Assembly (NCBI GenBank): GCA_017477435.1
Contig: JAFUVV010000049.1
Location: 1-34,376, forward strand
DNA from: Prevotella sp.
Lineage (GTDB): Bacteria > Bacteroidota > Bacteroidia > Bacteroidales > Bacteroidaceae
Direction: 5' to 3'
Length of the DNA stretch: 34,376 nt
The translations under genes were made by a program, and so were the position numbers. The notes under the pieces were generated by a model. That model was given only the letters and a program-made list of their open reading frames with translations. It was not told the DNA's origin and did no database searches. Positions 9,864 to 32,151 of this stretch are shown one piece after another (the first letter of the stretch is position 1; every line of letters begins with the position of its first letter).

Positions 9864-9951
9864 AATACAAGAGCCATGTACCCGCAGTACATGGCTCTTG
9901 TACTTTTAGTACATGGGCATCGAACTGGCAGTACTAGGCCCATGTACTCTC
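9864..9951. repeat. 22-bp x 4 palindromic array, copy 1
   Basis: Four consecutive 22-bp units (9864, 9886, 9908, 9930) follow the plan arm AGTACA, 7-nt centre, arm TGTACT, 3-nt linker. Unit 1 is the reverse complement of unit 2 over 16 bp (9866-9881 against 9887-9902, 5-nt loop), so these two form a very strong hairpin, followed by CTTTT. That hairpin lies 56 bp after the lipoprotein stop codon and could act as its terminator. Unit 3 has a decayed right arm (GAACTG). The same element occurs at 14595 and 25000, and a variant at 32064. Confidence 0.85.
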
Positions 9952-9991
9952 GCCAGACGACAACACTTCCCTCGGAGAAGCACTATCATGA

Positions 9992-10556
9992 GTCGCCCTC
10001 TTCGAGGACGTAATTACATATAAGAGCACAACATCCGCGGGTTTTACCCGCGGTTACAAAGCATTGACCGCTCCGCGGCCATTCCCCGAACGTAAGCCAT
10101 GCGATATCTACAACAGAATACAATTTCTTAATAGAATATCCACAAAAAGACTGAGCCATTATACATGGCTGAATTTAGCCTACCAACAACATTTTTCAGG
10201 CACTGCCTTCATAAAAGAAGAAAAACGCATATCTACTCTTTCTTCATCATGCAACCCATACAATCGAATACCCTCGAAGAGAGCAAAACAGCAAAGCTAT
10301 AATGACACGCATGCAAACACTACTTGCATCGACAGGCCCTCGAAGAGGACAACACAGCAAAGCTATATAGACACGCATGCAAGCATCACTTACACCGACA
10401 AGCCCTCGAAGAGAGCAACACAGCAAAGCTATATAGACACGCGTGCAAGGACAACTCGCATCGACAGGCCCTCGAAGAGGGCAACGCTTTATAACCGCGG
10501 GTGAAAACCCGCGGACTATACATACGATCACACACACCGTCCTCGAAGAGGGCGAC
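9992..10556. mobile_element. 565-bp non-coding element with composite inverted ends
   Basis: The 19 bases at 9992-10010 recur exactly, inverted, at 10538-10556; this sequence is itself a hairpin around GCCCTC and GAGG. Inside it on each side, 23-24 bp away, is a second hairpin, CCGCGGG/CCCGCGG (10035-10053 and 10495-10514), also in inverted order and followed by matching GGTTAYAAAGC sequence. The interior holds a 66-bp tandem repeat built around the same CCCTCGAAGAG core. No gene is convincing inside. An IS200-like transposase gene ends 75 bp to the right, so this may be a non-autonomous element or a REP/BIME-type cluster mobilised by it. Confidence 0.6.
10248..10485. repeat. 66-bp minisatellite
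   Basis: CCCTCGAAGAG recurs at 10271, 10337, 10403 and 10469, each exactly 66 bp apart. The sequence between is conserved too (AGCAAAGCTATA, GACACGC, TGCAA, CGACA), so the whole unit is duplicated. The first and last units are partial. Since 66 is divisible by three, both strands stay open as 22-residue repeats. Each unit contains the hairpin core found at the ends of the enclosing element. Confidence 0.75.
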
Positions 10557-10630
10557 GATGCTCTTACGATGACACTATACTACGTATGATACAAAAGGTA
10601 GAAACTACAACCCACCACCACCGCTGTCAC

Positions 10631-11083
10631 TCAGTCAGAAAGGAAATACTTCTCATCAAACTCCACCCCCTGCTCTATCAGCAGACAACGCAACTCTTCT
10701 GCAAAGCTAACCCTCTTGTGATGCTCCTTTTGATTCATAATATATCTACGTATCGTCTCTCTATCATCCTTCCCATAAGTCAAAGCACAATATGATTTCC
10801 CCCAGCCGTCGAAAAGAGGGAATTCGCTCGGATGAGACCTAAGAAACACGCTCGTAGCTGTCTTTATATTACGCATAAAATCGGCCACTGATATCGTCGG
10901 AGGAATATTAGCCAGGACATGCACATGGTCGGGCATTCCGCCTATACGATGAGTGACGCCGCCAGCATTCTTAATACATGCAAAAAGATAACTGTACAGA
11001 TCGCGCTCATGCTCAACATTTATAGCTGGCCGACTCGACTTTGTGCGGAAGACAATATGATAAAGAAGATTCGTGTAGCTCAT
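10631..11083 (-). CDS. IS200-like Y1 (RAYT-type) transposase
   Basis: A 150-residue HUH single-strand transposase. The metal-binding HUH motif is in MPDHVHVLANIPP (about 62-74), and the nucleophile Tyr is in RRYIMNQKEHHKR (about 116-128), the classic IS200/IS605 TnpA C-terminal helix. The start MSYTNLLYHIVFRTK is typical of the family. Such enzymes cut and join single-stranded DNA at hairpins. No TnpB partner is present. Palindrome-rich DNA lies on both sides (9992-10556 and 11110-11192), which favours a domesticated RAYT that mobilises REP-like hairpins, or an IS200-type element with degraded ends. The open frame is intact, so activity is possible. Confidence 0.88.
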   Translation of the reverse strand: MSYTNLLYHIVFRTKSSRPAINVEHERDLYSYLFACIKNAGGVTHRIGGMPDHVHVLANIPPTISVADFMRNIKTATSVFLRSHPSEFPLFDGWGKSYCALTYGKDDRETIRRYIMNQKEHHKRVSFAEELRCLLIEQGVEFDEKYFLSD

Positions 11084-11109
11084 GATACTGTCTTTATATA
11101 ATAAAAGAA

Positions 11110-11192
11110 AAGGGACTTAGATGAACATTACTATTGCCTGCAATAAAAACTGTTCTTCACAGTTATTTCGGCAAATGTTCGTCTAAGTCCCT
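11110..11192. other. Long stem with two inner hairpins between mdh and the transposase
   Basis: AGGGACTTAGATGAACATT (11111-11129) pairs with 11174-11192 with a single mismatch, a 19-bp stem. The loop contains ATTGC/GCAAT (11133-11144) and ACTGT/ACAGT (11149-11163), giving a three-way, cloverleaf-like fold. On the minus strand the outer stem is followed by TTTTCTTTTATT, so it could terminate mdh. It also sits 27 bp upstream of the transposase start, so it could be the recognition end of that element. Confidence 0.6.
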
Positions 11193-11220
11193 CTTTCTTA
11201 TTTAGTTTGCTATGAACTGA

Positions 11221-12213
11221 TTAAAGGTTCGGGTTGATTTCGCTCCACTTTGAGAGCTCTGGCACGATGTTCAGAGTGACGAGTTCATCGCGCATCTTGC
11301 AGAGGTGTTCGTAGCTCTGGTCGAGCTTTGCGTTTTCCTCGGCTGTTCCCTGTGGCACCTCGAAGTGTGCGCCCGTGGTGTCGAGGGTGGTCTTCATGGC
11401 CATCATGATGTGGTCGTACTTGTCGGTCTTCACGTATGTTCCCACTGGGAAGCGGAATGGCTCGCCGCCCATGACCGAACGGATCATCTCCACTGAGAGG
11501 TATGCCGGGCTCTGGAACGAGCTACGGCCACGCAGCTTGATGATGGCTGCACCGCCCTGTGTGACGTCTTTCTTCATCTGCTCCCACTCCTCTGCGGGGA
11601 ACTCAGGTGTACCGATGATGTCGGTCAGTTTGCGGCCGTCGATCTCGACGTGGCTGCCGAACACTGCCATCTGCTCACCGTGTCCGCCGTAGGTGGCGCA
11701 TCCTGTGATCTCGCTCTGCATGACGCCGAACTTCTTTGCCAGTGCGCTCTGCAGACGGGTGGTGTCGAGGGCAGCGAGGGTTGTGACCTGGCTTGGCTTC
11801 AGTCCTGAGTAGAGCAGAGTCACCAGACCTGTGAGGTCGGCGGGGTTGAAGATGATGACCACGTGCTTCACGTCGGGGCAGTACTGCTTGATGTTCTTTC
11901 CCAGGCCTTCGGCGATCTCGCAGTTACCCTTGAGCAGGTCTTCGCGTGTCATGCCTTCCTTACGTGGTGCACCACCTGAAGAGATGATATACTTTGCTCC
12001 TGTGAATGCCTCAGCAGCGTCGGTGGTGGCTGTGATCTTCACGTCGCCAAAGCCGCTCTGACGCATTTCCTCTGCCACGCCCTCGGGTGAGAACACGTCG
12101 TAGAGGCAGATGTCGTTAGTCAGTCCCATTGTCAGGGCTGTCTGTACCATGTTTGAACCAATCATTCCGGCTGCGCCGACGATTGTAAGTTTGTCGTTTG
12201 TTAAGAATGCCAT
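11221..12213 (-). CDS. mdh: Malate dehydrogenase
   Basis: A 330-residue NAD-dependent malate dehydrogenase interconverting malate and oxaloacetate in the cytoplasm. The Rossmann motif is IVGAAGMIGSN (11-21). The substrate loop reads APRKEGMTREDLL, with Arg84 and Arg90. LDTTRLQ supplies Arg153, and GGHGEQM the catalytic His178. The length is normal and the ATG is preceded by a good promoter (12256-12286). In Prevotella-like anaerobes this enzyme feeds the reductive branch to fumarate and succinate. It stands alone: the next gene upstream on the strand is separated by 168 bp with terminator-like palindromes. Confidence 0.95.
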   Translation of the reverse strand: MAFLTNDKLTIVGAAGMIGSNMVQTALTMGLTNDICLYDVFSPEGVAEEMRQSGFGDVKITATTDAAEAFTGAKYIISSGGAPRKEGMTREDLLKGNCEIAEGLGKNIKQYCPDVKHVVIIFNPADLTGLVTLLYSGLKPSQVTTLAALDTTRLQSALAKKFGVMQSEITGCATYGGHGEQMAVFGSHVEIDGRKLTDIIGTPEFPAEEWEQMKKDVTQGGAAIIKLRGRSSFQSPAYLSVEMIRSVMGGEPFRFPVGTYVKTDKYDHIMMAMKTTLDTTGAHFEVPQGTAEENAKLDQSYEHLCKMRDELVTLNIVPELSKWSEINPNL

Positions 12214-12255
12214 TGTTGTTTATTTTTAGTTTGAATCTGTTTCTTAAATTCGCTG

Positions 12256-12299
12256 CAAAGGTACAAAATTCTGCCCGAAGGGCAACATACCTTTCGGGC
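12256..12299 (-). promoter_or_regulatory. mdh promoter overlapped by a palindrome
   Basis: On the minus strand TACCTTTG (12256-12263) is a full -7 match, and GTTG (12283-12286) is a near -33 element at the usual 19-bp spacing. The -33 element lies in the centre of the 10-bp inverted repeat GCCCGAAGGG-N7-CCTTTCGGGC (12273-12299, one mismatch). A dimeric regulator bound there would block or recruit polymerase. Confidence 0.6.
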
Positions 12300-12324
12300 T
12301 ATTTTAGGAGACGAAATGTTATAT

Positions 12325-12363
12325 TTTTATAAAAACCGGCTTCCCTGCAAAGTGGAGTTTGCA
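12325..12363 (-). terminator. Possible terminator after the DUF2059-like gene
   Basis: On the minus strand TGCAAA-N6-TTTGCA (12346-12363) is followed by GGTTTTTATAAAAA (the palindrome at 12325-12336 and its flank). It lies 19 bp after the stop codon at 12382. The stem is only 6 bp, so strength is uncertain. Confidence 0.35.
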
Positions 12364-12381
12364 AAAAGGCTTGTTCTCACT

Positions 12382-13236
12382 TTATTCCGTTGCTGCCTTC
12401 ACGCCCTTGTCGCGCAGCCAGTCGAGGTAGGACTGCATGATGGTCATGCCCGTCTGCGGCAGATTCTTCATCATGTTGCTCGATGCATCCACCACGTTTT
12501 TATATGCAGGCATATCGGCCAGTTTAATGGCAAAGCGCAGGTTGCCTTCGTCCATGATGTTATACATCGAATTGAGATAAAGTGTGGGCAGGTTTGAGCT
12601 GAAGTATTTGTCGAGCTTCTCCACCATGCTGGCAGCGCCGAAGTTGCTGAGCAGCGACGTCAGCCCCTGCATCATATTCGATGAGAGAGAACCCAATCCC
12701 GACTTGGCATAATATTGTTTGAACAGAGTGGTGTAGCTTTCGGGTATCTCACTGTTCTGTTCGAGCGGCTCGGGTGTCTTGCCCGACATCAGTTGCATCA
12801 CCACCATCTTGCCGAAGTCCTCCCATGCTGCCGACGTGATGCTGTTCATCTTCGTCGCCTTCTGCTGCAGGTCTTTGCCTTCGGGGCTCTGCAAAGCCTC
12901 GGTGAGCTTTTTCAGATCGTCGGTCGATACGAGTCCGTTCAGCCCTTTGGCAAGCAGTCGCTCGGCGACATCACTCACGAACTGCTCGCCCAGATATTCC
13001 TCCACATACTGCTGCGAGTTGTCGTCGTCGAGCTCGGGAGCAATCGATTTGTTCAGCTCCGTAAACACTTTCAGCAGCTACTCTTTCTGGTTGCCGAGGC
13101 TATTTGGCGCGGCCTTCAGATATTTCTTCACTGCCTCGATGAAGTCGGCATCCATGTCGTCGGTCTGAGCATGCACTGTCAGGAACGACAACGACGACAG
13201 CAGTGTCACAATGATGATTCTGAAATTAATTTTCAT
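12382..13236 (-). pseudogene. Secreted DUF2059-like protein interrupted by an in-frame amber codon
   Basis: From the ATG at 13236, 52 codons encode a clean signal peptide (MKINFRIIIVTLLSSLSFL, cleaved near VHAQ) and the start of the mature protein, then TAG stands at codon 53 (13078-13080). The same frame stays open for another 231 codons to TGA or TAA at 12382. The downstream part (LTEALQSPEGKDLQQKATKM) resembles the DUF2059 pattern of periplasmic helical proteins. The protein is Met- and Leu-rich and wholly helical-looking. A GTG at 13068 could in principle restart translation, but the product would lack a signal peptide. One base change, for example from CAG, would explain the stop. Confidence 0.65.
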
Positions 13237-13320
13237 ATCCGTATCTGTTTGTATATTTGATTGTTGTCTTACGGTGTTGTTACTTTCTTTCCGTGCTTTG
13301 TCACAACTGACTACGGGCGC

Positions 13321-14352
13321 CTATTGCAACATGCTCATCGGTATGCGCGCCAGATAGATGGCGGGACGTCCGCCTTCATGCTGCGAATAGTAGCTCACCC
13401 AAAGCTCATTACCCTCGATGATAAGACCGGGATATGCATTGTCGCCGCCCGACGGTAGCACAACCTTCTCATCGAGTCTGCCCTCGAAATCACCTTTATA
13501 CACTGTGGTCGTAGAGTGAGGCAGATAGTAGTTGCGCGACGCAGCAATAATGCTGTCACCACTGACGATATAATCGGGACCACCTAAACGTAGGTCCATC
13601 TTGTGCCACTTCCACTCGGTGAACGGCTTGTTGCTTACTCCCCAATAGCCTCGGCAGTCGCCTGCATCGCGTCGCACCATCATCGACATGCGCCCATCGG
13701 GGAGGAATCGCACGGTGGTCTCGTTGGGGAAATCAGGCACAGCGAGGTCGGTAATCTTATCATATCGCACACCGTCGCGGGTTGAATAAAGTCGCAAAAA
13801 GCGCTCACCCGCAGGTGTTGTGCCATAGCCGACCACATATCCGACTCCATCATGCCACGTGATACGCCACAGCCAATCGCTCGTGTGCTCGTCGCCATCA
13901 ACGAACTCCACTGGCCTGGGCTCGGTAAAATGCTCACCGTCGCTACTGAAAACAACATGCGGTACCATACCTTTCAACTCACGATTGCGGTATATGCTAC
14001 CACCCATGATTACCATCAGCCTTCCGTCGGGCGTCACCGACAACTTCGGGTCGCGTAGGTCGTAGCCCTCACGAGCCCCGAGATAGACGCTCTTCCAACG
14101 CTTGCCGTCCTTCGAGACGATGATGCGCGTCTTGCCCTCGGCACGGCCCTGACTGTCGAAAATATGACTCTCGCCCTCGCGGAACGAGCAATAGAAGCGC
14201 CCCCTATATTTTATTAAAGAGGTGAACGAACTATATGCATCGGTCTTCCAGATGCAGTCGACGGTATAGCTTATCGTCTGCCGATTGTCTTTCGCCGCAA
14301 GCGATAACGACACTATCAGCGACAAAAACAAAATGATACTTGTCTTTTTCAT
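13321..14352 (-). CDS. Secreted sialidase-like beta-propeller protein
   Basis: A 343-residue protein with a signal peptide ending near SLSLAA. Repeated Asp-box-like turns mark a sialidase-type six-bladed propeller: SKDGKRWKS, SSDGEHFTE and STRDGVRYDK. Other blade strands end in GGDNAYPGLI and ELWVSYYSQHEG. SFREGESH, LRDPKLSVTPDGR and FLPDGRMSMMVRRD provide the several Arg residues that bind carboxylates in sialidases, but the canonical FRIP motif is absent. Exo-sialidase activity is therefore uncertain; it may act on another sugar or only bind one. It has its own promoter and follows waaA on the same strand after 429 bp of repeat-containing DNA. Confidence 0.7.
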   Translation of the reverse strand: MKKTSIILFLSLIVSLSLAAKDNRQTISYTVDCIWKTDAYSSFTSLIKYRGRFYCSFREGESHIFDSQGRAEGKTRIIVSKDGKRWKSVYLGAREGYDLRDPKLSVTPDGRLMVIMGGSIYRNRELKGMVPHVVFSSDGEHFTEPRPVEFVDGDEHTSDWLWRITWHDGVGYVVGYGTTPAGERFLRLYSTRDGVRYDKITDLAVPDFPNETTVRFLPDGRMSMMVRRDAGDCRGYWGVSNKPFTEWKWHKMDLRLGGPDYIVSGDSIIAASRNYYLPHSTTTVYKGDFEGRLDEKVVLPSGGDNAYPGLIIEGNELWVSYYSQHEGGRPAIYLARIPMSMLQ

Positions 14353-14382
14353 AAATGCAGATGGTTATAGACTTAATCGATG

Positions 14383-14414
14383 CAAATATAAAGATAAAAA
14401 ACGACACCGGCAAC
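14383..14414 (-). promoter_or_regulatory. Promoter of the sialidase-like gene
   Basis: On the minus strand TATATTTG (14383-14390) matches TAnnTTTG, with GTTG (14411-14414) 20 bp upstream as a near -33 element. The start codon is 31 bp downstream. The rest of the 14415-14594 gap shows no gene. Confidence 0.55.
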
Positions 14415-14594
14415 AAAACACAGAGAAAACTGACAATTATTCTTAACCCTAATCGTTCATCAGACCGAGAAAAGGGATATCATAGTCTGAAACAACTCTC
14501 TTTATGCCATAGTTGCATCTGTTCTGCCTTCTTACCGCCTTTATCTTTTTGACGGAGGCATGCGTCAGCCGAACCACAAACGCTTCCTGCCGAC

Positions 14595-14682
14595 AGTACA
14601 TGACTCTTGTACTCCGAGTACATGGCCCGTGTACTCCAAGTACATGGTTTTTGTACTGTGAGTACATGGCCCATGTACTGCT
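14595..14682. repeat. 22-bp x 4 palindromic array, copy 2
   Basis: Units start at 14595, 14617, 14639 and 14661, each AGTACA, 7 nt, TGTACT, 3 nt. The last unit is a near-perfect palindrome (AGTACATGG-C-CCATGTACT). The array is followed by GCCTG-N6-CTGCCGGCA (14683-14702), which also follows copy 3. It lies between the end of waaA and the promoter of the sialidase-like gene. Confidence 0.9.
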
Positions 14683-14781
14683 GCCTGCCATCGCTGCCGG
14701 CACAAAAAGATGAGGCATCTCCGACGGCCCGGAAATGCCTCCAACATGTATGTCTCTTGGCCCTGAGGGGCGAAAATGCCA

Positions 14782-16035
14782 TCAGAGCTTCACGCTCTTC
14801 ATTATTACATCGGTTGCTCCCACGCGGCTGGCAACGAAGCGACCGGCGTTCTGACCAGTCTTCGAGAGATAGTCGGCATCGGTGATGAACCGGCGCATCT
14901 GCGTGCGGAACGACTGAAGGTCTTTTATCTCGAATCCGCCTTCGGCAATGATGAGTTCGCGCGCCTCCTGGAACTTCTTGTTGTTGGGCCCAAAGATGAC
15001 GGGCATGCCCCACACGGCAGCCTCGAGCACGTTGTGTATGCCCACTCCGAAGCCGCCGCCTACGTAGGCCACGTCGCCGTATTGATACACCGACGAGAGG
15101 AGCCCGTAGCAGTCGATGATCAGGCAGTCGGCCTCGGCAGCCTCCTCGGGGGTGGTCTGCGTGTAGCGCACTGTCTTGCGGTCGAGCTTGGAAAGTATCT
15201 GGTGGAGATGGTCGTCGCCGACGACATGCGGGGCGATAATGAGCTTCCAGTCGCGGTGATGGTTGAAGTATTTTATGAATATATCTTCGTCGGGCTGCCA
15301 GCTGGAGCCTGCCACAAACACGGGCATCGCGCTGTCCACTCCATGCTCCTCGCTCCTCGCTCCACCCTTTCTGAACGCCTCGACGATGGGCAGGCGCTTG
15401 GCAGCATCGCGTATCTGGAGCACACGGTCGAAACGGGTGTCGCCGACAACCGTGACATTGTCGATACCTATCGTGGAGAGAAGGTAGCGGCTACGCTCGT
15501 TCTGGACAAAGAAGTGGGTGAAGCAACGGAGCACCTCGCCATACTGCCGGCCGTACCACTTGAAGAAGACCTGGTCGGGGCGGAAGATGCTCGACACGCT
15601 GTAGACGGGCACCTTGCGATGGCGGAGGATGTGGAGATAGTTGTACCAGAACTCATACTTTATGAAGAATGCCATCACGGGGCGCACAGTGCGCAGGAAG
15701 CGACGCGCATTGCGAATGGTGTCGAGCGGCAGATAGCAGATGATGTCGGCACCCTGATAGTTTTTCCTCACCTCGTAGCCCGAGGGCGAGAAAAAAGTCA
15801 GCAGAATCTTATATTCGGGGTGCTCGGCACGGAGACGCTCCATGAGCGGGCGACCCTGTTCAAACTCACCGAGCGAGGCGGCATGGAACCATACATACTG
15901 TGCCTCGGGATCGATCTTTTCCTTAAGCAGTCTTATGGCCTGACGCTCGCCACGCCACATCTGTCGGACCTTCTTGTTGAAGACGCTGGCAATGGCCACT
16001 CCGATCAGGTAGATATAGATAACGACGTTGTACAA
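14782..16035 (-). CDS. waaA: 3-deoxy-D-manno-octulosonic acid (Kdo) transferase
   Basis: Transfers Kdo from CMP-Kdo to lipid A precursors at the inner membrane, the first step of the lipopolysaccharide core. An N-terminal anchor helix (YNVVIYIYLIGVAIASVF) is followed by a GT30 domain with the WFHAASLGEFEQGRPL motif (glycine-rich loop and catalytic Glu), FSPSGYE, FIKYEFWYN, and the C-terminal nucleotide-sugar domain with GSSWQPDED, YVGGGFGVGIHNVLEAA and FGPNNKKFQEA. I place the start at the TTG at 16035 (417 residues), since relatives start just before the anchor helix; an in-frame TTG at 16095 would add 20 unconserved residues. It follows gltX on the same strand; the 111-bp gap holds a CTCCCC/GGGGAG hairpin. 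Confidence 0.9.
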   Translation of the reverse strand: MYNVVIYIYLIGVAIASVFNKKVRQMWRGERQAIRLLKEKIDPEAQYVWFHAASLGEFEQGRPLMERLRAEHPEYKILLTFFSPSGYEVRKNYQGADIICYLPLDTIRNARRFLRTVRPVMAFFIKYEFWYNYLHILRHRKVPVYSVSSIFRPDQVFFKWYGRQYGEVLRCFTHFFVQNERSRYLLSTIGIDNVTVVGDTRFDRVLQIRDAAKRLPIVEAFRKGGARSEEHGVDSAMPVFVAGSSWQPDEDIFIKYFNHHRDWKLIIAPHVVGDDHLHQILSKLDRKTVRYTQTTPEEAAEADCLIIDCYGLLSSVYQYGDVAYVGGGFGVGIHNVLEAAVWGMPVIFGPNNKKFQEARELIIAEGGFEIKDLQSFRTQMRRFITDADYLSKTGQNAGRFVASRVGATDVIMKSVKL

Positions 16036-16146
16036 AATAGGTGATGGATTATGAGTGATGGATTCGGGATAATGGATACGTGGTGATAGTCCCAACCGAC
16101 CTCCCCATGGGGAGGAACTATGAACTATGGGCTAAGAATTATGAAC

Positions 16147-17664
16147 TCATTTCAGCACTTCCACGGCGCGGCGCAGGCGCTTCAGCGTCTCTTCCTTACC
16201 GAGGAATGCGGATATGTCGAACATACCGGGACCCTTGCCTATGCCGACCAGGGCAAGGCGGAAGGCGTTCATGACGTCGCCAAGCTTGTAGTCTTTCGCC
16301 TCTACCCATTTCATCACGACAGCCTCCTGACCCTCCACAGAGAAGTCGTCGATGCCCTCGAGAACGGCAGCAAGCTCCGTCATCTGCTGAGCAGAATATT
16401 CCTTCCAGCGCTTCTTCACCGTCTTCTCGTCGTATTCCATCGGAGCAATGAAGAAGAACGAGCAGAGCGGCCATAGCTCCTTGACGAAGCTGACGCGGTC
16501 TTTCATCATCGCCACCACCTGCGTGACGCGATCCATGCTCTCCTCGACACCGTTGTTTGCCACAATGGGAGCAAACAGACGGGCAATCTCCTCATTCGAC
16601 TTGCGGAGGATATACTCATGGTTGAACCAGATGCCTTTCTGATAGTCGAACTTCGCTCCTGCCTTCGAACAACGCGAGATATCGAAGGCTTCCACGAGTT
16701 CGTCGAGCGAGAAGATTTCCTGCTCTGTGCCTGGATTCCATCCTAAGAGCGCAAGGAAATTGACTACTGCCTCGGGGAAGTATCCGCTCTCGCGATATCC
16801 GGAGCTCACCTCGCCCGTCTTGGGATCGTGCCACTCCAGCGGGAAAACGGGGAACCCGAGCCGGTCGCCGTCGCGCTTGGAGAGCTTACCCTTGCCCTCG
16901 GGCTTCAGGAGCAGCGGCAGGTGGGCAAAACGCGGCATGGTGTCTTCCCAGCCGAAAGCACGATAGAGCATCACATGGAGAGGGGCCGACGGAAGCCATT
17001 CCTCGCCGCGGATGACGTGGGTGATTTCCATCAGATGGTCGTCGACAATGTTGGCAAGATGATATGTCGGCAACTCGTCGGCACTCTTATAAAGCACCTT
17101 GTCGTCTACGATGTCGCTCTTTATGACCACCTCGCCACGGATCATGTCGTTGACGTGAATTTCCTGCCCGGGCTCCACCTTGAAACGGACGACATACTGC
17201 CGCCCGTCGGCGATGAGAGCGTCGACCTCTGCCTTGCTCATCGTGAGCGAGTTCTTCATGAGATGACGCGTGTGGGCATCATATTGGAAATTCTGTATCT
17301 CGCTCCGCTTGGCCTCAAGCTCATCGGGAGTGTCAAAGGCAATATAGGCAGCATCGCTGTCAAGCAACTGCTGCACGTATTTCTTATATATCTCGCGACG
17401 CTCACTCTGGCGGTAGGGACCATATTCTCCACCGAACGACACACCCTCGTCGAATTTTATACCAAGCCAGCGGAACGATTCGATGATGTATTCCTCAGCT
17501 CCCGGGACAAAACGGTTGGAGTCGGTATCCTCTATTCTGAACACCAAATCACCACCATGCTGGCGAGCAAACAAATAATTATACAATGCTGTGCGGACTC
17601 CTCCAATGTGAAGAGCTCCAGTAGGACTCGGTGCAAAGCGCACCCTTACTTTTCTCTCTGACAT
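16147..17664 (-). CDS. gltX: Glutamyl-tRNA synthetase
   Basis: A 505-residue class I aminoacyl-tRNA synthetase charging tRNA-Glu. The HIGH motif appears in [21 protein letters not shown] near the N-terminus, and the KMSKS counterpart is [11 protein letters not shown] (about residue 260). [13 protein letters not shown] and [11 protein letters not shown] are family signatures. The C-terminal half is the helical anticodon-binding domain. The length is normal for bacterial GltX. The start is fixed by the conserved [14 protein letters not shown]. The gene diverges from the HD-domain gene; a minus-strand -7 match lies 35 bp upstream. Confidence 0.96.
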
Positions 17665-17699
17665 TACTCTAAAAAAGATTGTAATATTATAATTTTCCG

Positions 17700-17707
17700 C
17701 AAAATTA
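17700..17707 (-). promoter_or_regulatory. Putative gltX -7 element
   Basis: On the minus strand this reads TAATTTTG, matching TAnnTTTG, 35 bp before the gltX ATG. No TTTG stands at the expected distance upstream; the region is T/A-rich. Confidence 0.4.
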
Positions 17708-17715
17708 CACTTTTT

Positions 17716-24475: not shown

Positions 24476-24816
24476 ACCGCAAAAATATAGGAAAAGAGGG
24501 AAACCGCAAAATAAAAAGAGAGGAAAAAACCGTCGGCCCATAAAAATAGCGAAGGAAGAACAGAGGCCCGCGAACGGACATGTTCTCCCTAAACATTATT
24601 ACCCTTTACTTGGAAAAATTTCTCTACTTGTCACACGACAAGTTGCAATAGCTAAGGTGTCTTCTCAGACTTCTGTAAAAAACGATACCATGTTAAATCT
24701 TGTGATGTGGGCTGCCGCTGCAGCCCGTTCCTGTAAAAGTCATTCTGTATGTAAGCCCTCAACGGGCGGAACTTGAATTAGAAAATCAAAGTCCTACTTA
24801 TGATTATTCAACGATG
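24476..24816. other. priA leader region with two small hairpins
   Basis: No gene is convincing here. GGGCTGC-N4-GCAGCCC (24709-24726) and GCCC-N5-GGGC (24755-24767), the latter in the context TGTAAGCCCTCAACGGGCGG, look like dispersed intergenic palindromes of the kind common in Bacteroidales. If transcription starts at the -7 element at 24817, this is an untranslated leader of about 340 nt. Confidence 0.4.
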
Positions 24817-24929
24817 CAAAGATAGCACAGCGCAGCGAAAATCTCTTTTGTAAATATGACTTTCGCTTTCGTAAAAATGACTTTTTCTGAAAATTTGGCA
24901 AATGTGACGCATTTTGTCACATTTACAAA
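24817..24929 (-). promoter_or_regulatory. Putative promoter with a cluster of four operator-like words
   Basis: On the minus strand TATCTTTG (24817-24824) matches the -7 consensus. Directly upstream lie four copies of a 14-15-bp word, written on the plus strand as TTTGTAAATATGAC (24847), TTTCGTAAAAATGAC (24867), TTTGGCAAATGTGAC (24894) and, inverted, GTCACATTTACAAA (24916-24929). The last two form AAATGTGAC-N7-GTCACATTT (24900-24924), a perfect 9-bp inverted repeat. This looks like a regulator-bound promoter reading toward priA. Confidence 0.5.
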
Positions 24930-24999
24930 AGCCGGCAGACTGTCTTTCCTCTCTCTCCGCTCGATATTCCTGTCGCATCCATGCGAAATTCTTGTCGGA

Positions 25000-25087
25000 A
25001 GTACATGGGCCTTGTACCGAGAGTACATGGTTCTTGTACTCGGAGTACATGGGCTTTGTACTGGGAGTACATGGCCTTTGTACTCTT
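25000..25087. repeat. 22-bp x 4 palindromic array, copy 3
   Basis: Units start at 25000, 25022, 25044 and 25066 with the plan AGTACA, 7 nt, TGTAC(T/C), 3 nt. All four units are in the same orientation, with TGG opening the centre. GCCTG-N6-CTGCCGGCA follows at 25088-25107, as after copy 2, and the upstream flank TTCTTGTCGGA resembles TTCCTGCCGAC of copy 2. The array lies between the stop of the beta-barrel gene and the promoter cluster before priA. Confidence 0.9.
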
Positions 25088-25212
25088 GCCTGTACTATCT
25101 GCCGGCATCACCAACCAGATTTTGCGGCGGAGGAGAAACAAAAGAGTCCCGGCAGCGGAAGGGCTACCGGAACTCGTATTTTCGTGCTAAAGAGACATTC
25201 GGGGTATGGCTG

Positions 25213-25875
25213 CTAGAAGTAAAGTGCTGCCGACAGCTGCCAGACGTTCTGCTTGCTGTCCATGAATTTCACGTTTTCTTTCACCTCGTCGGCTATCCGC
25301 TGATAGGATATCTCACCGGTGTTGCCGCAGGCGATGTTGTAGGTCACGCTCACCTCCACATGGCCGAGCGTGACGCCGGCACCGAAGTTGATGCTGAACA
25401 TCGACCCCTTCGGGCGGAACGTCGTCTTATACCACTCGCCGCTGGCCAGGTCGATGTTCTTGCCTAAGTTGAACGTCATCTGCGGTCCGGCGGCCAGATA
25501 GACCCATCCGAACTGCAGGCGGACGTTGAGAGGGATATCTACAGCCCGCTGCTTGACGCTGGTGGGCTCCATGTCGAAGACCGTCTCGCCCATGCCGCTC
25601 GCTGCTACCTCCGGCGACTCGGTGAAGTTTTCCGACAGACGGAACGAGCGCTCATTGTAGAGAGCCGACAGGTCGAAGGCGACGAACGTGCCTGTCTTCA
25701 CGCGCATCGTAGGACCAATGAAGAATCCCGTGCGATTGCTCGTCTTGAGCACTTCGTTGCTCAACTTCATCGAAGTGAGGTTCAGACCGCCCTTCACACC
25801 AAAATTCACCTGCGCCGTAGCAACGCCCGACACAATCAGCGCTGCAACCACAGCAAGAACACGTAACTTCTTCAT
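25213..25875 (-). CDS. Outer membrane beta-barrel protein, PorT-like family
   Basis: A 220-residue protein with a signal peptide (MKKLRVLAVVAALIVSGVATA, cleaved before QVNFG) and an eight-strand-barrel pattern: FGVKGGLNLTSM, GFFIGPTMRVKTG, FVAFDLSALYNERSF, DIPLNVRLQFGWVYLAAGPQ, SINFGAGVTLGHVEVSVTYN, and a terminal LSAALYF with final Phe. This is the common Bacteroidetes PorT-like barrel domain. The ATG at 25875 is preferred; upstream in-frame starts add residues before the signal peptide. It follows gldN beyond a strong terminator, so it is probably a separate unit. It may be an orphan barrel or an accessory to type IX secretion; membership of the PorT branch proper is uncertain. Confidence 0.8.
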   Translation of the reverse strand: MKKLRVLAVVAALIVSGVATAQVNFGVKGGLNLTSMKLSNEVLKTSNRTGFFIGPTMRVKTGTFVAFDLSALYNERSFRLSENFTESPEVAASGMGETVFDMEPTSVKQRAVDIPLNVRLQFGWVYLAAGPQMTFNLGKNIDLASGEWYKTTFRPKGSMFSINFGAGVTLGHVEVSVTYNIACGNTGEISYQRIADEVKENVKFMDSKQNVWQLSAALYF

Positions 25876-25910
25876 CTGCATATGTTTATTCATTAATGAC
25901 TTCCATTTAT

Positions 25911-25994
25911 ATAAAAAAGAGAGGTAAGAAGGCATACTCTGAAGGCGAGACAACAGACCACAGTCCCATCTTCATTGCAAGCCTTCTTACCTCT
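25911..25994 (-). terminator. Terminator of the porP-gldKLMN operon
   Basis: On the minus strand AGAGGTAAGAAGGC (25981-25994) pairs perfectly with GCCTTCTTACCTCT (25920-25933) over 14 bp, followed by CTTTTTTAT. It begins 7 bp after the gldN stop. The 47-nt loop is long for an intrinsic terminator, but the stem and T run are strong. Confidence 0.75.
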
Positions 25995-26000
25995 TAGCTT

Positions 26001-27041
26001 TTATCTGCGCTCACGACGCACACTGATACGAGCACTCCCGCTGCCGCCCGAGCTCGAGCCAGAGCTGTTCTTTGCGCCCTTCACCTTCGACTCCGACGAC
26101 TTGCCGCGGCGAGTCCGCGACTTCTTCTTCATTGCCTTCAGCTCTTTCTTGTCGAGCTTGGCAATGCTGTCGAGCGAATCCTTGCGGGACTGGTCGCCCC
26201 ACATCTTGCTCTCGAAGGTCTTTATCTGATTCTCAATCTTGTTCTGCTCCTTCACAATGGTGGAGTCGTTCTCCACGTTGTTGGCGAGAGTGAGACCCTG
26301 CATATTGTTGGTCTTATAGATCTTACCCTTGTAGAGGTTCTTCGTGAAGTAGTCGTCCACGCTCATCGTGGCAGCATTGTTCAGATTGCTGGTCATCATC
26401 GTTTGGTTGGAGAGGAACGGAGCCAGGTCGTCGTAGACAACCCAGAAGAGCGGGCGCTTCTCGCCACTATCGCCGAAATCGTCGGCAACAATGCGAATCG
26501 GACATAGCGCCTGAACCTTAGTATGGAACGTGGCAGTAGACTGGTCGTAGTATGAACTCTCCTTCACGTAGTAGGCCTTCACCTCCTCCGACGGGATGTC
26601 GCTGTCGTCTATTCGCGTGCCCCGATCGGTGCGTTCGAAGTAGATGCTCTGGTCTTCAAGAAACTGCAACGGGCGCACTCGCGACGAGTCGTTGAACACC
26701 TCGTTGCCGTCGGTGCGGTAGATATAGGCTTTCAGCTTCCCTCGCATGACGAGTTTGAACATATACGTGAACAGATTCATCTGCGATCCCACGGGGGTCT
26801 TCGGATAATACAGGCCCGCGTTCGCATCGTCGAGAAGACTAATCTCGCGATAGATATCACGCCTCCATGCCACATCGGCGTCCATCTTTCCCTGCGCAGG
26901 GAACGATATCTGGGCGCGGGTAGACATGTTGTCGGCATTCGACTTTTGCGTCTTCTGCTGTTCGGCACGACGTGTTGCCGGCTGTGCCATGGCACCAGTG
27001 GCCAGCAATGCTAACGTCAGTATAAAAAATATCTTCTTCAT
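26001..27041 (-). CDS. gldN: Type IX secretion ring protein GldN (PorN)
   Basis: A periplasmic protein of 346 residues. With the GldK lipoprotein it forms the large ring under the outer membrane that supports type IX secretion. The signal peptide ends ATGAMA before QPATRR. The GldN domain is visible as DVAWRRDIYREISLLDDANA, then LYYPKTPVGSQMNLFTYMFKL, YVKESSYYDQSTATFHTKVQ and RPLFWVVYDDLAPFL. The last 60 residues are very basic and Ser/Gly-rich (KKKSRTRRGKSSES, then GSSSGGSGSARISVRRERR), a likely disordered tail. It is the last gene of the operon, 45 bp after gldM. Confidence 0.93.
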   Translation of the reverse strand: MKKIFFILTLALLATGAMAQPATRRAEQQKTQKSNADNMSTRAQISFPAQGKMDADVAWRRDIYREISLLDDANAGLYYPKTPVGSQMNLFTYMFKLVMRGKLKAYIYRTDGNEVFNDSSRVRPLQFLEDQSIYFERTDRGTRIDDSDIPSEEVKAYYVKESSYYDQSTATFHTKVQALCPIRIVADDFGDSGEKRPLFWVVYDDLAPFLSNQTMMTSNLNNAATMSVDDYFTKNLYKGKIYKTNNMQGLTLANNVENDSTIVKEQNKIENQIKTFESKMWGDQSRKDSLDSIAKLDKKELKAMKKKSRTRRGKSSESKVKGAKNSSGSSSGGSGSARISVRRERR

Positions 27042-27086
27042 TGAACCTTATTTTTCTGTTTTCGTTATTCTTTTTCCATTCATTCG

Positions 27087-28631
27087 CTACTTCACGATCA
27101 CCTCCATAGCGCCGGGCAACGTGCGGTTGATTCCATCTGGACCGACGGCCTGCACGCCACGGATGTAGAAACGGCGGTTGCGAGAGAGACGGCGGAATTC
27201 TTCCTTCTGGCGCGACGAGAAGTTGGCACCGTTAGAGGCCATCGGGATGGCATTACCCATACCGTCGAAGAACACAACTTCGAAGCTGTTCACCGTGAAA
27301 GGAATGTCGAGCAGTCCGTCGTCGATTGCAGCGCTCAGGGTGTTGAGCGACATGAGCGAAGCCTTTGCCAAGCCGCCGCCTTTGAAACGGTCGGTGCCCA
27401 CCACGGCATACGGTGTGGGATCGGGCAACTTCCTCACTTTGAACTTGAACGAGCCCATCTGCCGCGAACGGCCGTTCTGGTTGGCCGACACATTGATGGT
27501 CACTTCCTCGCCAATCTTCGTTGGCTTCGCAATGAACTTGCCCAGGCCTATCGAGCGGAACGACCCGTCGCTCATCGATGCCGACACGGCACCAAGAGGC
27601 ACACCGGGGATACTTATCGAGACAGGGTTCTCATAGCCGGCGTAGAGCACGTTCATCAGGTCGGCCGACACTGTGGCGCTCGGGGCTACGACGTTGTACT
27701 TCTGATTGAAGTCGCGGCGTATCAGGTCGCCATCGCCATTGCGCATGGTGATATATCCAGCAAAGGAATGCTCGCCCACCCCACCGGCAGCAAACTTATA
27801 AGTGTTGCCGCTTATCTGCCTGCCGCCTACGAATATCTCGGGTTGCATGGTGGTATCCACGGCTGCCATCACAATCTGAGCGGAATATGTGTCGCCGCTG
27901 ATTACGGTGTTGGCCTCGGGAATGACAAACGCGTCGATCTTATTCACACGCACATCCTTCACGTCGATGTTCGAAACGAGCGTGTGTAGCACCTCTCCCT
28001 CGGCGTATCTCACGTCGCTCTGCAGTTTCGAGAGCAACGTCACGGCTGCTGCCACCGGCATATTCTCAAACATATACTCCTGCCAGTTCTTCCCCAGGGC
28101 CTTCGCACTCTTCGACACTTCTGTCTGCAGGTTGCTCGAGATGATTTCCTTCTGCTTCGGGTCGCTTATCATGTTGAGGATGCGCATGCGGTATGAGTTT
28201 ATCGCATCGTAGAGCTTCTTTCCCTGTCCGGTTCCCGGGGCAAGCATCACCTGTGCTGCTGCCTCGAGGTCGTCCTTCGCCTTGATGTTCTTCGGATCGC
28301 CGTCTTTTCCGTCGGCTTCCTGAACAATGGCTACTTTCAGGCTCTGCGCCAGATTATAGATGGAATCGCTCATCTCCTTCACATTCTGCGCTCTGTCGAA
28401 CCATTGCTTCACCTTCTCGGGGTTGGTCTTCATCTGAGCGGCGAATGTCTCGTAGATCGACGCGTTCTGCTTGGTCGAGTTGGCTGTGGTGCGGCTCAGG
28501 CTGTCTTCGACGATCGAGAAGCCATTGAGCACCTCGGTCGAGACGTTGAGAGCGAGCATAGCCATCAGAACGACGTACATCAGGTTGATCATCTTCTGAC
28601 GCGGAGATATTGGTCTTTTCTTTATTGCCAT
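27087..28631 (-). CDS. gldM: Type IX secretion motor protein GldM (PorM)
   Basis: A 514-residue inner-membrane protein with one N-terminal helix (MINLMYVVLMAMLALNVSTE, about 14-33) and a long periplasmic arm of four domains that reaches the GldKN ring. The conserved opening KKRPISPRQKMINLMYVVL and the residue pattern STEVLNGFSIVEDSL identify it. The helix pairs with GldL to make the proton-driven rotary motor. Later Ig-like domains are seen in NTVISGDTYSAQIVMAAVDT and LPDPTPYAVVG. It starts 29 bp after gldL. Length and order are normal. Confidence 0.95.
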   Translation of the reverse strand: MAIKKRPISPRQKMINLMYVVLMAMLALNVSTEVLNGFSIVEDSLSRTTANSTKQNASIYETFAAQMKTNPEKVKQWFDRAQNVKEMSDSIYNLAQSLKVAIVQEADGKDGDPKNIKAKDDLEAAAQVMLAPGTGQGKKLYDAINSYRMRILNMISDPKQKEIISSNLQTEVSKSAKALGKNWQEYMFENMPVAAAVTLLSKLQSDVRYAEGEVLHTLVSNIDVKDVRVNKIDAFVIPEANTVISGDTYSAQIVMAAVDTTMQPEIFVGGRQISGNTYKFAAGGVGEHSFAGYITMRNGDGDLIRRDFNQKYNVVAPSATVSADLMNVLYAGYENPVSISIPGVPLGAVSASMSDGSFRSIGLGKFIAKPTKIGEEVTINVSANQNGRSRQMGSFKFKVRKLPDPTPYAVVGTDRFKGGGLAKASLMSLNTLSAAIDDGLLDIPFTVNSFEVVFFDGMGNAIPMASNGANFSSRQKEEFRRLSRNRRFYIRGVQAVGPDGINRTLPGAMEVIVK

Positions 28632-28660
28632 CTTACTATTGTTTGTTGGCTTTACGTGTA

Positions 28661-29488
28661 TTATCCTTGATTGTTACCGGCCTGCACGCTGCCTGGTGTG
28701 GCCACGCCCATGTTTACTGTCATGGCCTCTATCATACGTGCATAGATGCGGTTAAGCTCTTCTATCTGTCCTGCCATCTTGCGTGTCTGGGCGTTAATCT
28801 CGTCGATGGTACCTATTTGCGAACTTGCGCTCTTAAGCTGCATCTCGTAGACTTTGCAAATGCCTGTGAGTGTGCGGTTGAGATTCTCCATCTCCTCCGA
28901 GTCGGTTGTAAGACGCTGGCTCTGCTCTGATACTTTCTCGAGAACTTCGGTGAGTTTCTGCAACTGCTCTACATAGTTGTTCGTTGCCTCGGTCACGTCG
29001 GTTGTTGCAGGCTGTCCACCCACAAGTGCTGCCACGGCAGGCTGTCCGTCGCCACCTATTTCGATTGTACCGCCAGCCGGCACTCCGCCTTCGACACTCA
29101 CGCCGCCGTATCCGCCCTGGCCACCACCGATAACGATGGTGCCTCCGCCAGGAGCAACCACTGTGGCACCCTTGCCTTCGTCCTCACCAGCCTCTTCGCC
29201 TTCTTCGTCGTTGCCTTCGAGACTGACATGTGTAGGCAGGTCGCGGCCGTCGGCAGTCTTGTCAAACGGACGGTCGAATCCTGAAATGAAGAACACAAGC
29301 ACCTCTGTACCCATTCCGAGGAACAGCCAGAAGTTGGCACCCGGCATGTGGGTCAGTTTGAACAGGGCACCAAGAATCACGATAGAAGCACCCCAACTAT
29401 ATGCATAGTTCATGAACGTCTGTCCGGGAACGCTGTCGAGCCATTTCTGCAGACGATAAATAATGTTGTATTTACTGTACTGTGCCAT
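28661..29488 (-). CDS. gldL: Type IX secretion motor protein GldL (PorL)
   Basis: A 275-residue inner-membrane protein with two helices (about 28-45 and 52-70, YSWGASIVILGALFKLTHMPGA and FWLFLGMGTEVLVFFISGF). The membrane Glu in TEVLVFF is the kind of residue implicated in proton use. It surrounds the GldM helix dimer as the stator. A Gly- and acid-rich linker of about 75 residues (EGNDEEGEEAGEDEGKG, then GGGTIVIGGGQGGYGG) separates the membrane part from a long C-terminal coiled coil (NNYVEQLQKLTEVLEKVSEQ onward). Its ATG overlaps the gldK stop in TAATG, which suggests translational coupling. Confidence 0.94.
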   Translation of the reverse strand: MAQYSKYNIIYRLQKWLDSVPGQTFMNYAYSWGASIVILGALFKLTHMPGANFWLFLGMGTEVLVFFISGFDRPFDKTADGRDLPTHVSLEGNDEEGEEAGEDEGKGATVVAPGGGTIVIGGGQGGYGGVSVEGGVPAGGTIEIGGDGQPAVAALVGGQPATTDVTEATNNYVEQLQKLTEVLEKVSEQSQRLTTDSEEMENLNRTLTGICKVYEMQLKSASSQIGTIDEINAQTRKMAGQIEELNRIYARMIEAMTVNMGVATPGSVQAGNNQG

Positions 29489-30936
29489 TATTTCTTATTC
29501 TTTTTTTGTTTTCCACTTGTTGTATTTGCCAGACTTCTCACGCAACGGAATCCGATATATGAGCGTGGCTGGTTCTGGTATTCCCACGTACGCCATGCGC
29601 TTCGGATATAGCTCTCCGGATCTTTCCATGATCCTCCACGCACGCTTTTCTTCTTCAGTTTATACGGATCTTCCTTGGCTGCCTTGTATTCGAGCTGCGG
29701 GTTGAGGTCGTTCATGGCATCTACACCTGCCTCAGTGAAGATGGTGCTTGTCCATTCGGCCACATTACCGGCCATGTCGTAGAGTCCGTTGGTATTCGAG
29801 GCGTAAGCGCCCACCTTGCTTGTTATCAGGTTACCGTCCTCGGTATAGTTGCCGCGGTCGGGTTTAAAGTTTGCATAGAAGCATCCGTCGCCGTTCTTTA
29901 CATCTTTGTTCTCCCATGGGAACTCGTTGCCATCCTTGCCTCGTGCGGCATATTCCCACTCTGCTTCTGTCGGCAGACGATAGCGCTGCACGTAGCGTGC
30001 CTCGGCGCCAAGTCCTTTCAGCAGATATTCGGTGCGCCAAGCGCAGAAAGCGTTTGCCTGCTCCCATGTGACTCCCACGACGGGATAGTCGTTGTAGGCG
30101 GGATTGCTGAAATAGTTGCGCAGATAGGTCTCGTTCTCGGAGTTGTGGAAATCGTTCACCCAACATGTGGTATCGGGATATACGTTCACGATGTATGTGT
30201 TGAGGAAGTCCCACGGCCCTGAGAGCTGGCGGTTGATGGTTTCGCGCACGATGCGGCCCTCATCATCTACGTATGCAGTGTCTTTTGATATCATGATTAC
30301 CTCGTCGGGATTTACGTTGACGTCGGTATTCAGATTGCGCTCATCGGCGTGCATGCGATTGCGACGCAGGGCGGCAGTGGTGTAGTCGTACACCTCGTAG
30401 CGATAGTTGAGCTGACGGTAGTCGAGCAATTTCTCGCCAGTGACTGGATTTGTCACATACAGGCTTTCGAATGCACGCTGTTCGTCCTCGTTGGGCTTAC
30501 GGGGTAGCGACTTTTTCCAGTTCAGATGTGGAGTTACGGGGTCGCCGTTCTTGTCTTCGGTAATCATGTATGTCTCATCGCCTCCGTATGATGGGTCGGC
30601 CATACGTGTGCGGAGGATGCTGTCGCGCACCCACATCACAAACTGCTTGTACTGCGAATTGGTTATCTCTGTCTCGTCCATCCAGAATCCGTCGACCGAG
30701 ATGTCTCTCACCGGTGTCTGCTTGCCCCACAGCGAGTCTTGGCTGTCGAGACCCATGTGGAGGTAGCCGCGTCCCACCCTCACCATTCCATATGGCGATG
30801 GTTCGTTGAACGACTTGCCCTTGACGCCTACCACTTCGCCGCCTTTTCCCGACGACGAGGCCGACTTACTGCCGAAGCAGCCGGACAGCGTGATTAGTAG
30901 AACCGTGCTGAGCACTGATATCAAGATCTTCTTCAT
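29488..30936 (-). CDS. gldK: Type IX secretion ring lipoprotein GldK (PorK)
   Basis: A 482-residue outer-membrane lipoprotein; the lipobox LSGC places the acylated Cys at residue 20. The main domain is a formylglycine-generating-enzyme fold (GRGYLHMG, then VRDISVDGFWMDETEITNSQ, YRLPTEAEWEYAARG, YDMAGNVAEWTS, KSVRGGSWKD, RSYIGFRCVRS), used structurally in GldK rather than as an enzyme. It forms the periplasmic ring with GldN. Order and overlap with gldL are as in Porphyromonas gingivalis porPKLMN. It starts 75 bp after porP. Confidence 0.95.
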   Translation of the reverse strand: MKKILISVLSTVLLITLSGCFGSKSASSSGKGGEVVGVKGKSFNEPSPYGMVRVGRGYLHMGLDSQDSLWGKQTPVRDISVDGFWMDETEITNSQYKQFVMWVRDSILRTRMADPSYGGDETYMITEDKNGDPVTPHLNWKKSLPRKPNEDEQRAFESLYVTNPVTGEKLLDYRQLNYRYEVYDYTTAALRRNRMHADERNLNTDVNVNPDEVIMISKDTAYVDDEGRIVRETINRQLSGPWDFLNTYIVNVYPDTTCWVNDFHNSENETYLRNYFSNPAYNDYPVVGVTWEQANAFCAWRTEYLLKGLGAEARYVQRYRLPTEAEWEYAARGKDGNEFPWENKDVKNGDGCFYANFKPDRGNYTEDGNLITSKVGAYASNTNGLYDMAGNVAEWTSTIFTEAGVDAMNDLNPQLEYKAAKEDPYKLKKKSVRGGSWKDPESYIRSAWRTWEYQNQPRSYIGFRCVRSLANTTSGKQKKNKK

Positions 30937-31011
30937 TTTCTGTTGTTATATTTGATTCACTTTTCTTATTTTCTCACCTGTGGCGGAGGGTCCTCCTGCG
31001 TGGGTCTGACG

Positions 31012-31971
31012 CTATAGGATCCTGACGCTCTTGTGCTTGTTCTTTCCTTTTTTTATAAGGTTTATGTCGGTCTGGTAGCCGATGAAGAGTTCATGGCTAC
31101 CGTTGCCGGGGTTGATGGCTGAGGTGTATATTTCGTAGCTATAACCCAGCATCACTCCGTGGAAACGGCCTCCGATGAGGACTGTCACGGAATTGGTGGG
31201 GCTATAGCTGACGCCTCCGTACATCAACTTGTTCTCGTGGTTATACTCCAGCCGGCCGGTCACGTCGGCGCGCCAGCCTACCAGGTCGGTGCGCACGAGA
31301 ACAGATGGTTTTATTGTTAAGAACGGACTTCTGAGCTTAATATTGTATCCAGCGGTAAAATAAAGTGTCGGATCTATCTGCAGCTCGTTGCGCTCGCCGA
31401 GTTCCACGAGGGGCGAATTGAGGTGCAGGGCCGATACTCCCACGTAGAACCGCTTGTGCTTGTAGTAGAGTCCGGCGCACAGGTCGAGCTGGTGGCCGTC
31501 TACCTTCGACGTAGGCAGGGCGGGGTCGCCAGGCTCGTCGGGGTCGAGCTCGCCGCCGTCGAACACCTCGCTGATGAGACCGGCCTGCACGCCGATGCCA
31601 AGACGGCCGCCGAAGAGGGGAAGCTTGTAGGAATACTGCAGAGAGATGCGCTGGTGGGAGAACAGGCCGAGCTTGTCGTTGATGAACTGCACACCGCCGC
31701 CGTGATACGATTTCCAGAAGTAGAACGGAACATCGGCAGCGGCATACATGGTCTGAGGATTATGCTCGAATCCGGCAAGATCCATGGCATACGACAGGTC
31801 GACATTGAGCACAGATTCCTTACCGACAGCGGCAGGATTGAACGATGGCTCCATGTCGAAATAGTGGGCAAACGACACGTCGTACTGAGCGCGTATGCCC
31901 AGCACCGACACCCAGAGAAGCGTCAGAAACAGTATAATTCTACGTCTAAACACGAATAAATAACGAGTCAA
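31012..31971 (-). CDS. porP: PorP/SprF family outer membrane protein of type IX secretion
   Basis: A 319-residue barrel protein with a signal peptide ending GIRA before QYDVSFAHYFDMEPSFNPAAVG, the PorP/SprF signature start. Strands such as GGVQFINDKLGLFSHQRISLQYSY, RLGIGVQAGLI and KRFYVGVSALHLNSP follow. Family members bind the type IX ring or help present secreted proteins at the surface. It is the first gene of the porP-gldKLMN operon. No TAnnTTTG promoter is evident in the 200 bp upstream; instead a 22-bp x 4 array lies at 32064-32151. Confidence 0.92.
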   Translation of the reverse strand: MTRYLFVFRRRIILFLTLLWVSVLGIRAQYDVSFAHYFDMEPSFNPAAVGKESVLNVDLSYAMDLAGFEHNPQTMYAAADVPFYFWKSYHGGGVQFINDKLGLFSHQRISLQYSYKLPLFGGRLGIGVQAGLISEVFDGGELDPDEPGDPALPTSKVDGHQLDLCAGLYYKHKRFYVGVSALHLNSPLVELGERNELQIDPTLYFTAGYNIKLRSPFLTIKPSVLVRTDLVGWRADVTGRLEYNHENKLMYGGVSYSPTNSVTVLIGGRFHGVMLGYSYEIYTSAINPGNGSHELFIGYQTDINLIKKGKNKHKSVRIL

Positions 31972-32063
31972 CTCCGATTTTATTGCATATTCAGCGATTT
32001 TTATACCTTTTGCAATGAAATCGTAACGCTGAAGAGGAAAAAACAGAGCATAAGCATGCCTGC

Positions 32064-32151
32064 AGTATCAAGCCTTGATACTGACAGTATCAAAGTCGGA
32101 TAGCAACGGTATCAAAGCCAGATAGTAAGACTATCCACGCCAGATAGCATG
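32064..32151. repeat. 22-bp x 4 palindromic array, variant copy 4
   Basis: Units start at 32064, 32086, 32108 and 32130. Unit 1 is AGTATC, 7 nt, GATACT, 3 nt; the others are AGTATC/GATAGC, GGTATC/GATAGT and ACTATC/GATAGC with the same 6-7-6-3 spacing. Unit number, unit length and geometry match the AGTACA arrays exactly, but the arm sequence differs. It lies between the adenosyltransferase stop (31 bp away) and the porP start (92 bp away). Confidence 0.8.

Follow-up and report, generated by a model that had tools for sequence, protein, structure and literature searches.

Described dispersed repeats and site arrays

The REP, BIME and REPIN elements, which occur with RAYT transposases, are dispersed intergenic palindromes of high copy number, with lineage-specific expansions and several families per genome (PMC3733652, PMC6006769). 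The palindromic arrays of the Prevotella genome described below resemble them in being dispersed intergenic palindromes with many copies, lineage-specific expansions and several families per genome; with 19-bp palindromes in approximately 171 arrays, a number obtained by scaling, they show the REP hallmark of a small palindrome in many intergenic copies. The arrays differ by consisting of four tandem palindromes at a fixed 22-bp step, by having no GTAG/CGTC tag and by keeping their geometry with arm letters that vary from species to species. In addition, there is no constant association with a Y1 gene: the RAYT/Y1 transposase flanked by its own repeats, typical of REP systems, was not found, with an array near one of four Y1 places and no Y1 match in two array-bearing genomes.

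Multi-dimer operators, partition-site arrays (parC, iterons) and scattered MatP or Noc sites are phased tandem or scattered sites bound by dimers. Sites of this type feature one conserved sequence and occur at few loci or as single sites, whereas the arrays number approximately 171 by scaling and have arm sequences that vary from species to species.

The BrickBuilt MITE of Porphyromonas gingivalis consists of 23-nt direct repeats in varying number, occurs in 19 copies and carries in its leader and tail terminal inverted repeats resembling those of IS elements (PMC4596501). It shares with the arrays the short tandem repeats, the intergenic sites and a Bacteroidales genome; in contrast, its repeats are direct, 23 nt long and variable in number, and the string "palindrom" is absent from the portion of the text examined (PMC4596501). 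For P. gingivalis W83, the same source mentions an earlier report of 22-nt tandem direct repeats that gave no precise positions (PMC4596501). At gathering score, 5S rRNA is the sole Rfam match in the window, the arrays having none, and no title or abstract start in the literature searched describes the element. The arrays are classed as a variant of dispersed palindromic repeats, apparently without earlier description in the titles and abstract starts searched—in line with the initial annotation, which knew of no named element of this design.

Arrays in the analyzed contig

The window, i.e., the whole stretch of 34,376 nucleotides that was analyzed, is contig 21 of a 2.32-Mb assembly of 62 contigs judged 78% complete. 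Arrays of 88 bp can be read directly at 9864, 14595, 25000 and 32064, exactly where they had been proposed. The 88 bp include a terminal 3-nt linker, and the symmetric core measures 85 bp. The features, none of which is assigned a strand, are:

9864..9951: four-unit array with AGTACA/TGTACT arms, worn; 19/24 pairs, one arm being TCGAAC and one AGTACT; a 308-aa ORF ending at 9810 precedes it, and an opposite-strand Y1 transposase ORF ends at 10631
14587..14594: left edge of the 14595 array, CTGCCGAC; one instance of a weak symmetric edge motif
14595..14682: four-unit array with AGTACA/TGTACT arms; 24/24 pairs intact; flanked by two minus-strand genes
14680..14687: right edge of the 14595 array, GCTGCCTG; one instance of the same weak motif
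25000..25087: four-unit array with AGTACA/TGTACT arms; 23/24 pairs; in the gap upstream of priA
32064..32151: four-unit array of a second arm class, AGTATC/GATACT and variants; 19/24 pairs; between a PorP/SprF gene and a cobalamin adenosyltransferase gene

A scan for geometry only (6-nt arm, 7-nt centre, 6-nt inverted arm, 22-bp period, four units, scored by arm pairs out of 24) finds in the window exactly these four arrays at a threshold of at least 18 pairs and none in each of two dinucleotide shuffles; at least 20 pairs retains two of the four. The arrays of the initial annotation are confirmed, with refinements: those at 14595 and 25000 are clean, the 9864 array is worn and the 32064 array carries other arms. 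Because the latter arms differ from those of the other three, the window holds two arm classes with one geometry.

Further repeats were seen. Two 21-bp copies (CTTTCGTAAAAATGACTTT) at 24845–24884 share the gap of the 25000 array, and a degenerate 9/18/45-bp tandem repeat (TCTATAGCC/TCTATCCCT) at 34073–34227 adjoins the 5S rRNA match at 34285–34376 on the minus strand. A different dispersed palindrome (ATCACGGGGACTGTCCCCGTGAT) lies in two copies at 1371–1436 of L135, with further matches in G398 and G143 (query 371–444).

Array number and units per array

A pattern spanning two adjoining units occurs genome-wide 379 times on one strand and 370 times on the other. The genome sample comprised the window and 20 stretches chosen for containing matches, 393 kb in total. 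It features 43 places with AGTACA/TGTACT arms: 41 four-unit arrays, one six-unit array and one lone unit, with two of the 41 counted as four that had scored five under a lenient rule because of a chance unit in front. In addition, 85 lone units and three two-unit chains in the sample were inspected by eye and attributed to chance or to off-register 9-of-12 matches. Scaled by the pattern counts, approximately 171 AGTACA arrays are expected genome-wide.

The same geometry is present in this sample with other arms, namely ACTATC, GGCTAA, ACATAA, and ATTAAA framed by GCTAGC-centred palindromes; some of these matches lie near the threshold of 17, in or near the chance range. Four is again the commonest count with other arms (9/15, 13/17 and 7/9 arrays) as given by a detector that has a floor near four and misses two three-unit arrays; the 41 of 43 for AGTACA was counted without such a floor. 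Unit numbers of 3, 5, 6, 7 and 8 also occur elsewhere, i.e., the unit count does vary. The argument of the initial annotation that a common count and geometry speak against random slippage is borne out by the 41 four-unit places among 43 and by 22 being the only prominent period among 15–44; random unit counts and spacings were looked for in the sample of this genome and were not obtained.

Several arrays depart from the usual form. In the six-unit array at L026 14826, a pair of units (44 bp) is duplicated, which preserves a trace of expansion by whole units. At L150 4288–4563, two arrays with TTGGTA and AGTACA arms adjoin each other and comprise 12 units by one count and 7 + 6 by another, counts that may overlap. 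Composite arrays, in which two GCTAGC-centred palindromes surround two ATTAAA palindromes at a 22-bp step, are found at L053 2118, 9268 and 14413 and at L022 2353.

Spacing, sequence constraint and edges

The spacing was taken from exact arm hexamers without presupposing 22. Distances from AGTACA to TGTACT are 13 (138 cases), 35 (105) and 25 (2); from AGTACA to AGTACA, 22 (97), 44 (65), 12 (1) and 34 (1); and across the linker from TGTACT to AGTACA, 9 (101) and 19 (1). In each stray distance, a hexamer from beyond the arrays is involved. Around 42 arrays and with one mismatch tolerated, the arm distance is 13 (162) or 10 (1) and the linker distance 9 (120) or 12 (2). One-base spacing deviations are absent from both measurements, i.e., from the 393-kb sample with exact hexamers and from the 42 arrays with one mismatch. 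Over the period range 15–44 in relatives' loci, only 22 is prominent; signals at 33 and 44 were rejected as periods of their own, since nearly all of them proved on inspection to alias the 22-bp lattice. The exceptions are a repeat of 33 bp in L091 and a separate one of 42 bp in L084.

Both arms are exact in 137 of 170 units around the 42 arrays. Across 41 aligned arrays, the arms are near-invariant and the loops and linkers variable; units roughly follow AGTACA-W-R-R-N-Y-Y-W-TGTACT, and the outer positions of the linker are mostly G or C. Loops and linkers agree between arrays at a mean of 20.8 of 37 positions (approximately 44% differ). The most alike pair agrees at 31 of 37, which is inside the column-shuffled range (largest 32), and the spread is 3.48 compared with 2.82 after shuffling. 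Since this likeness stays within column expectation, no recent copies are seen in this sample, yet small indels are also absent. Dyads are located in both the loop centres and the linker centres, 11 bp apart.

The edges of the 41 arrays carry a weak symmetric motif of about 8 bp, YYGGCKGC ... GYWGCCRR, whose left and right letters do not covary within arrays; these edge columns show no GTAG/CGTC tetranucleotide tag at the hairpin foot. A target-site duplication was not found for the 41 arrays: the best of several thousand combinations of offset and length reaches z 3.8 at uneven offsets (29 left, 12 right), with none at the edges.

Arm classes and orthologous loci in relatives

The AGTACA two-unit pattern occurs in 16 of 398 same-genus genomes drawn from a larger group, this one included; the other 15 have 1 to 18 matches, counted over both strands combined. 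Relatives' loci were collected via PriA, 80 being kept of 214 found, under the labels Prevotella, Prevotellaceae, Hoylesella, Segatella, Leyella and Xylanibacter. The geometry scan of these 80 loci yields 34 arrays in 24 loci at threshold 18, where two shuffles give one each, and 15 arrays in 12 loci at threshold 20, where the shuffles give none. Their arms are mostly others, e.g., AGAAAC, GCGAAA, ATTACC, GTTCCA, TTGGTC and TGTACA. The occurrence is patchy, with one match at threshold 18 in 20 same-genus stretches (229 kb, some very short); 20 same-order stretches (273 kb) give one match, equal to each of their shuffles, and 50 kb of E. coli give none. Carriage by phages or plasmids was considered and dropped, the AGTACA class having no match in viral contigs and the 14595 array none in phages or plasmids.

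The nearest named genome is the MAG RUG12886, whose PriA is 82% identical; over the 22 kb compared, it is collinear with the window. The two gaps that carry the window arrays at 25000 and 32064 are occupied in this genome by four-unit ATTAAA/GCTAGC-class arrays (scores 20 and 18); the gap matching 14595 has no array at threshold 18, and one array lies in a gap that is empty in the window. A narrow pattern of this class occurs 39 times in the RUG12886 genome. The array-bearing gaps align poorly between the two, and a clean empty site relative to this nearest species was abandoned because the intergenic DNA is too diverged to place its boundary.

At the 3' end of a DUF6078 gene (family scanned in one of five species), an AGTACA array overlapping the stop codon is kept in five species. 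The sole length change inside it is one whole extra 22-bp unit in one species, and in the two most distant of the five the far flank does not align. A second locus has three units in one species and four in a relative; in a third species, the gap lacks an array and holds approximately 1 kb of other DNA. A third locus has the array with its edges (128 bp) directly next to both flanking blocks in one genome, whereas in another 8.5 and 2.1 kb of other DNA separate it from them. In one related clade, different loci of one genome share, among the matches listed, blocks of approximately 95–190 bp that include the edges, GTTTTATCAT and ACARCCAT. Copying of the whole structure, as suggested in the initial annotation, is thus seen in this one clade; the best pair among the 41 sampled arrays of the present genome stays within column expectation.

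Gene context and rival explanations

Genes were called by a simple hexamer-scored caller (256 genes, 81% of bases), and the context was read for 49 arrays, i.e., the 41 four-unit AGTACA arrays and 8 chosen others. They are distributed over 23 tandem, 10 convergent and 8 divergent gaps, while 2 overlap a predicted gene and 6 lie where a stretch ends; for comparison, the same DNA has 49 tandem, 23 convergent and 19 divergent gaps of at least 150 bp. The initial annotation had pictured each transcript as a string of four small hairpins, and an RNA element at transcript ends or in leaders, which would stabilize, terminate or bind protein, could account for the low minimum energies of the four window arrays relative to shuffles (z −2.8 to −8.7), the terminator-like site scanned inside the 9864 array and the overlap with the stop codon in one clade. 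However, the predicted folds of these four arrays differ from one to the next and pair mostly between units; divergent gaps are occupied; and the orientation by loop asymmetry is independent of gene direction (8 co-oriented and 9 anti-oriented among 17 four-unit AGTACA arrays between same-strand genes). Selection on RNA would predict an excess of G-U, and it is A-C that prevails among transcribed-strand arm mismatches (11 compared with 3 in 19 AGTACA arrays, 20 compared with 4 with three ACTATC-arm arrays added). The absence of an Rfam match for the window arrays points in the same direction. The string of hairpins is, hence, not upheld, and an RNA element is improbable.

Mobility and copying bear on how the arrays arose. 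They may, at rather low probability, be REP-like or MITE-like parasites of little host function, moved in trans by a Y1 (HUH) or other transposase that would read structure and let arm letters drift in pairs. Such parasitism explains the copy numbers, with dispersed palindromes mostly between genes, and the lineage-specific bursts; variable stems with fixed geometry, the common-edged blocks among the matches listed and the orthologous gap with an array in two species and none in a third also agree with it. Four Y1_Tnp matches are present in the genome, one of them inside the window. Against this, three of the four Y1 places lack an array at threshold 18 over 1.5 kb or as far as the contig extends, the fourth having one within that distance, and two array-bearing genomes, both 99% complete, give no Y1_Tnp match; on these grounds, the window transposase was rejected as sole driver. 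The missing GTAG-type tag and target duplication and the lack of a closely alike pair among the 41 sampled arrays also weigh against parasites, which would need neither a strict 3-bp linker nor a count of four. MITEs without target duplications do exist. Alternatively, hairpin-primed strand switching could yield tandem palindromes at a fixed step with no selection involved, and a step of 22 common to many arm classes and whole-unit differences would fit such a copying artefact. Yet the arms are intact where the loops vary, an array is retained in five species with an unalignable flank in two, the peak at four units is sharp, and neutral decay should give one-base spacing changes, of which none are seen. 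This artefact is already disfavoured and highly improbable. Near the window's Y1 (IS200-like) transposase gene (10631–11083), a different tandem repeat of 66 bp (3.3 copies), which contains a TGCAAG/CTTGCA hairpin, lies at 10271–10485 and is possibly that gene's own repeat.

A putative DNA-binding platform

With about even probability, the arrays are double-stranded DNA platforms that would be bound cooperatively by dimers of a putative protein and dispersed lineage by lineage. Each array would form a lattice of eight half-sites in alternating orientation. Since the symmetry centres in the 7-bp loops and 3-bp linkers are 11 bp apart, one DNA face could accommodate a row of four dimers, or of eight monomers in contact, of a single protein. 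Constrained half-sites and a fixed helical spacing of dyads are what cooperative operators or architectural sites display, and a dyad-symmetric site for a cooperative dimeric protein, as the initial annotation proposed, is the best reading of the sequence. A strict 3-bp linker is required by helical phasing and not by a row of RNA hairpins, which supports the platform. The fixed linker, the two sets of dyads, length changes by whole units and the indifference to gene direction would all follow from such a platform. Its role may be architectural or boundary-like, marking or insulating gaps between genes, rather than the control of particular promoters. The arrays would spread as blocks within a lineage by a putative copying machinery, one arm sequence taking over per lineage with spacing and usual count held. 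The platform and the parasite are compatible, and both can be true.

Several points count against the platform. Several unrelated arm classes in one genome are hard to reconcile with one base-reading protein, which is a weak point, as are the patchy occurrence (one match in 229 kb of same-genus stretches) and the lack of an evident candidate binder among ten proteins near arrays at four relatives' loci (L137, L146, L147 and L152). In addition, AGTACA is not avoided outside arrays (120 observed compared with 105 expected), and unit number varies elsewhere (3, 5, 6, 7, 8). B-form DNA has approximately 10.5 bp per turn, and a 22-bp step therefore drifts by about one base per unit. The proteins at the four loci include DUF6078, AAA_14/DUF4143, RloB-like, a TonB receptor, a ZIP transporter, a PLP enzyme and a metallo-hydrolase. 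Since none of the ten is an evident binder, the idea that an adjacent gene regulates itself through the array was rejected. A sigma-70 region 2 protein lies approximately 2.3 kb from the array in L147.

A genus-wide extension of the platform is conceivable, if unlikely: a site system inheriting geometry and not sequence, with four palindromes, an 11-bp dyad step and arm letters replaced by lineage, sometimes in the same gap. A putative binder family with specificity turnover and a fixed polymer architecture would then act on chromosome organization.

Significance

Dispersed bacterial repeats are usually recognized by their sequence, and a family that keeps its spacing and usual count but not its letters eludes sequence-based searches. 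Such a family also provides binding-site dialects in a naturally occurring series. Should there be a cognate protein, it would represent a new DNA-binding system of chromosome scale in a genus common in gut and rumen; if the arrays are selfish, they would be an unusual mobile class with no evident enzyme.
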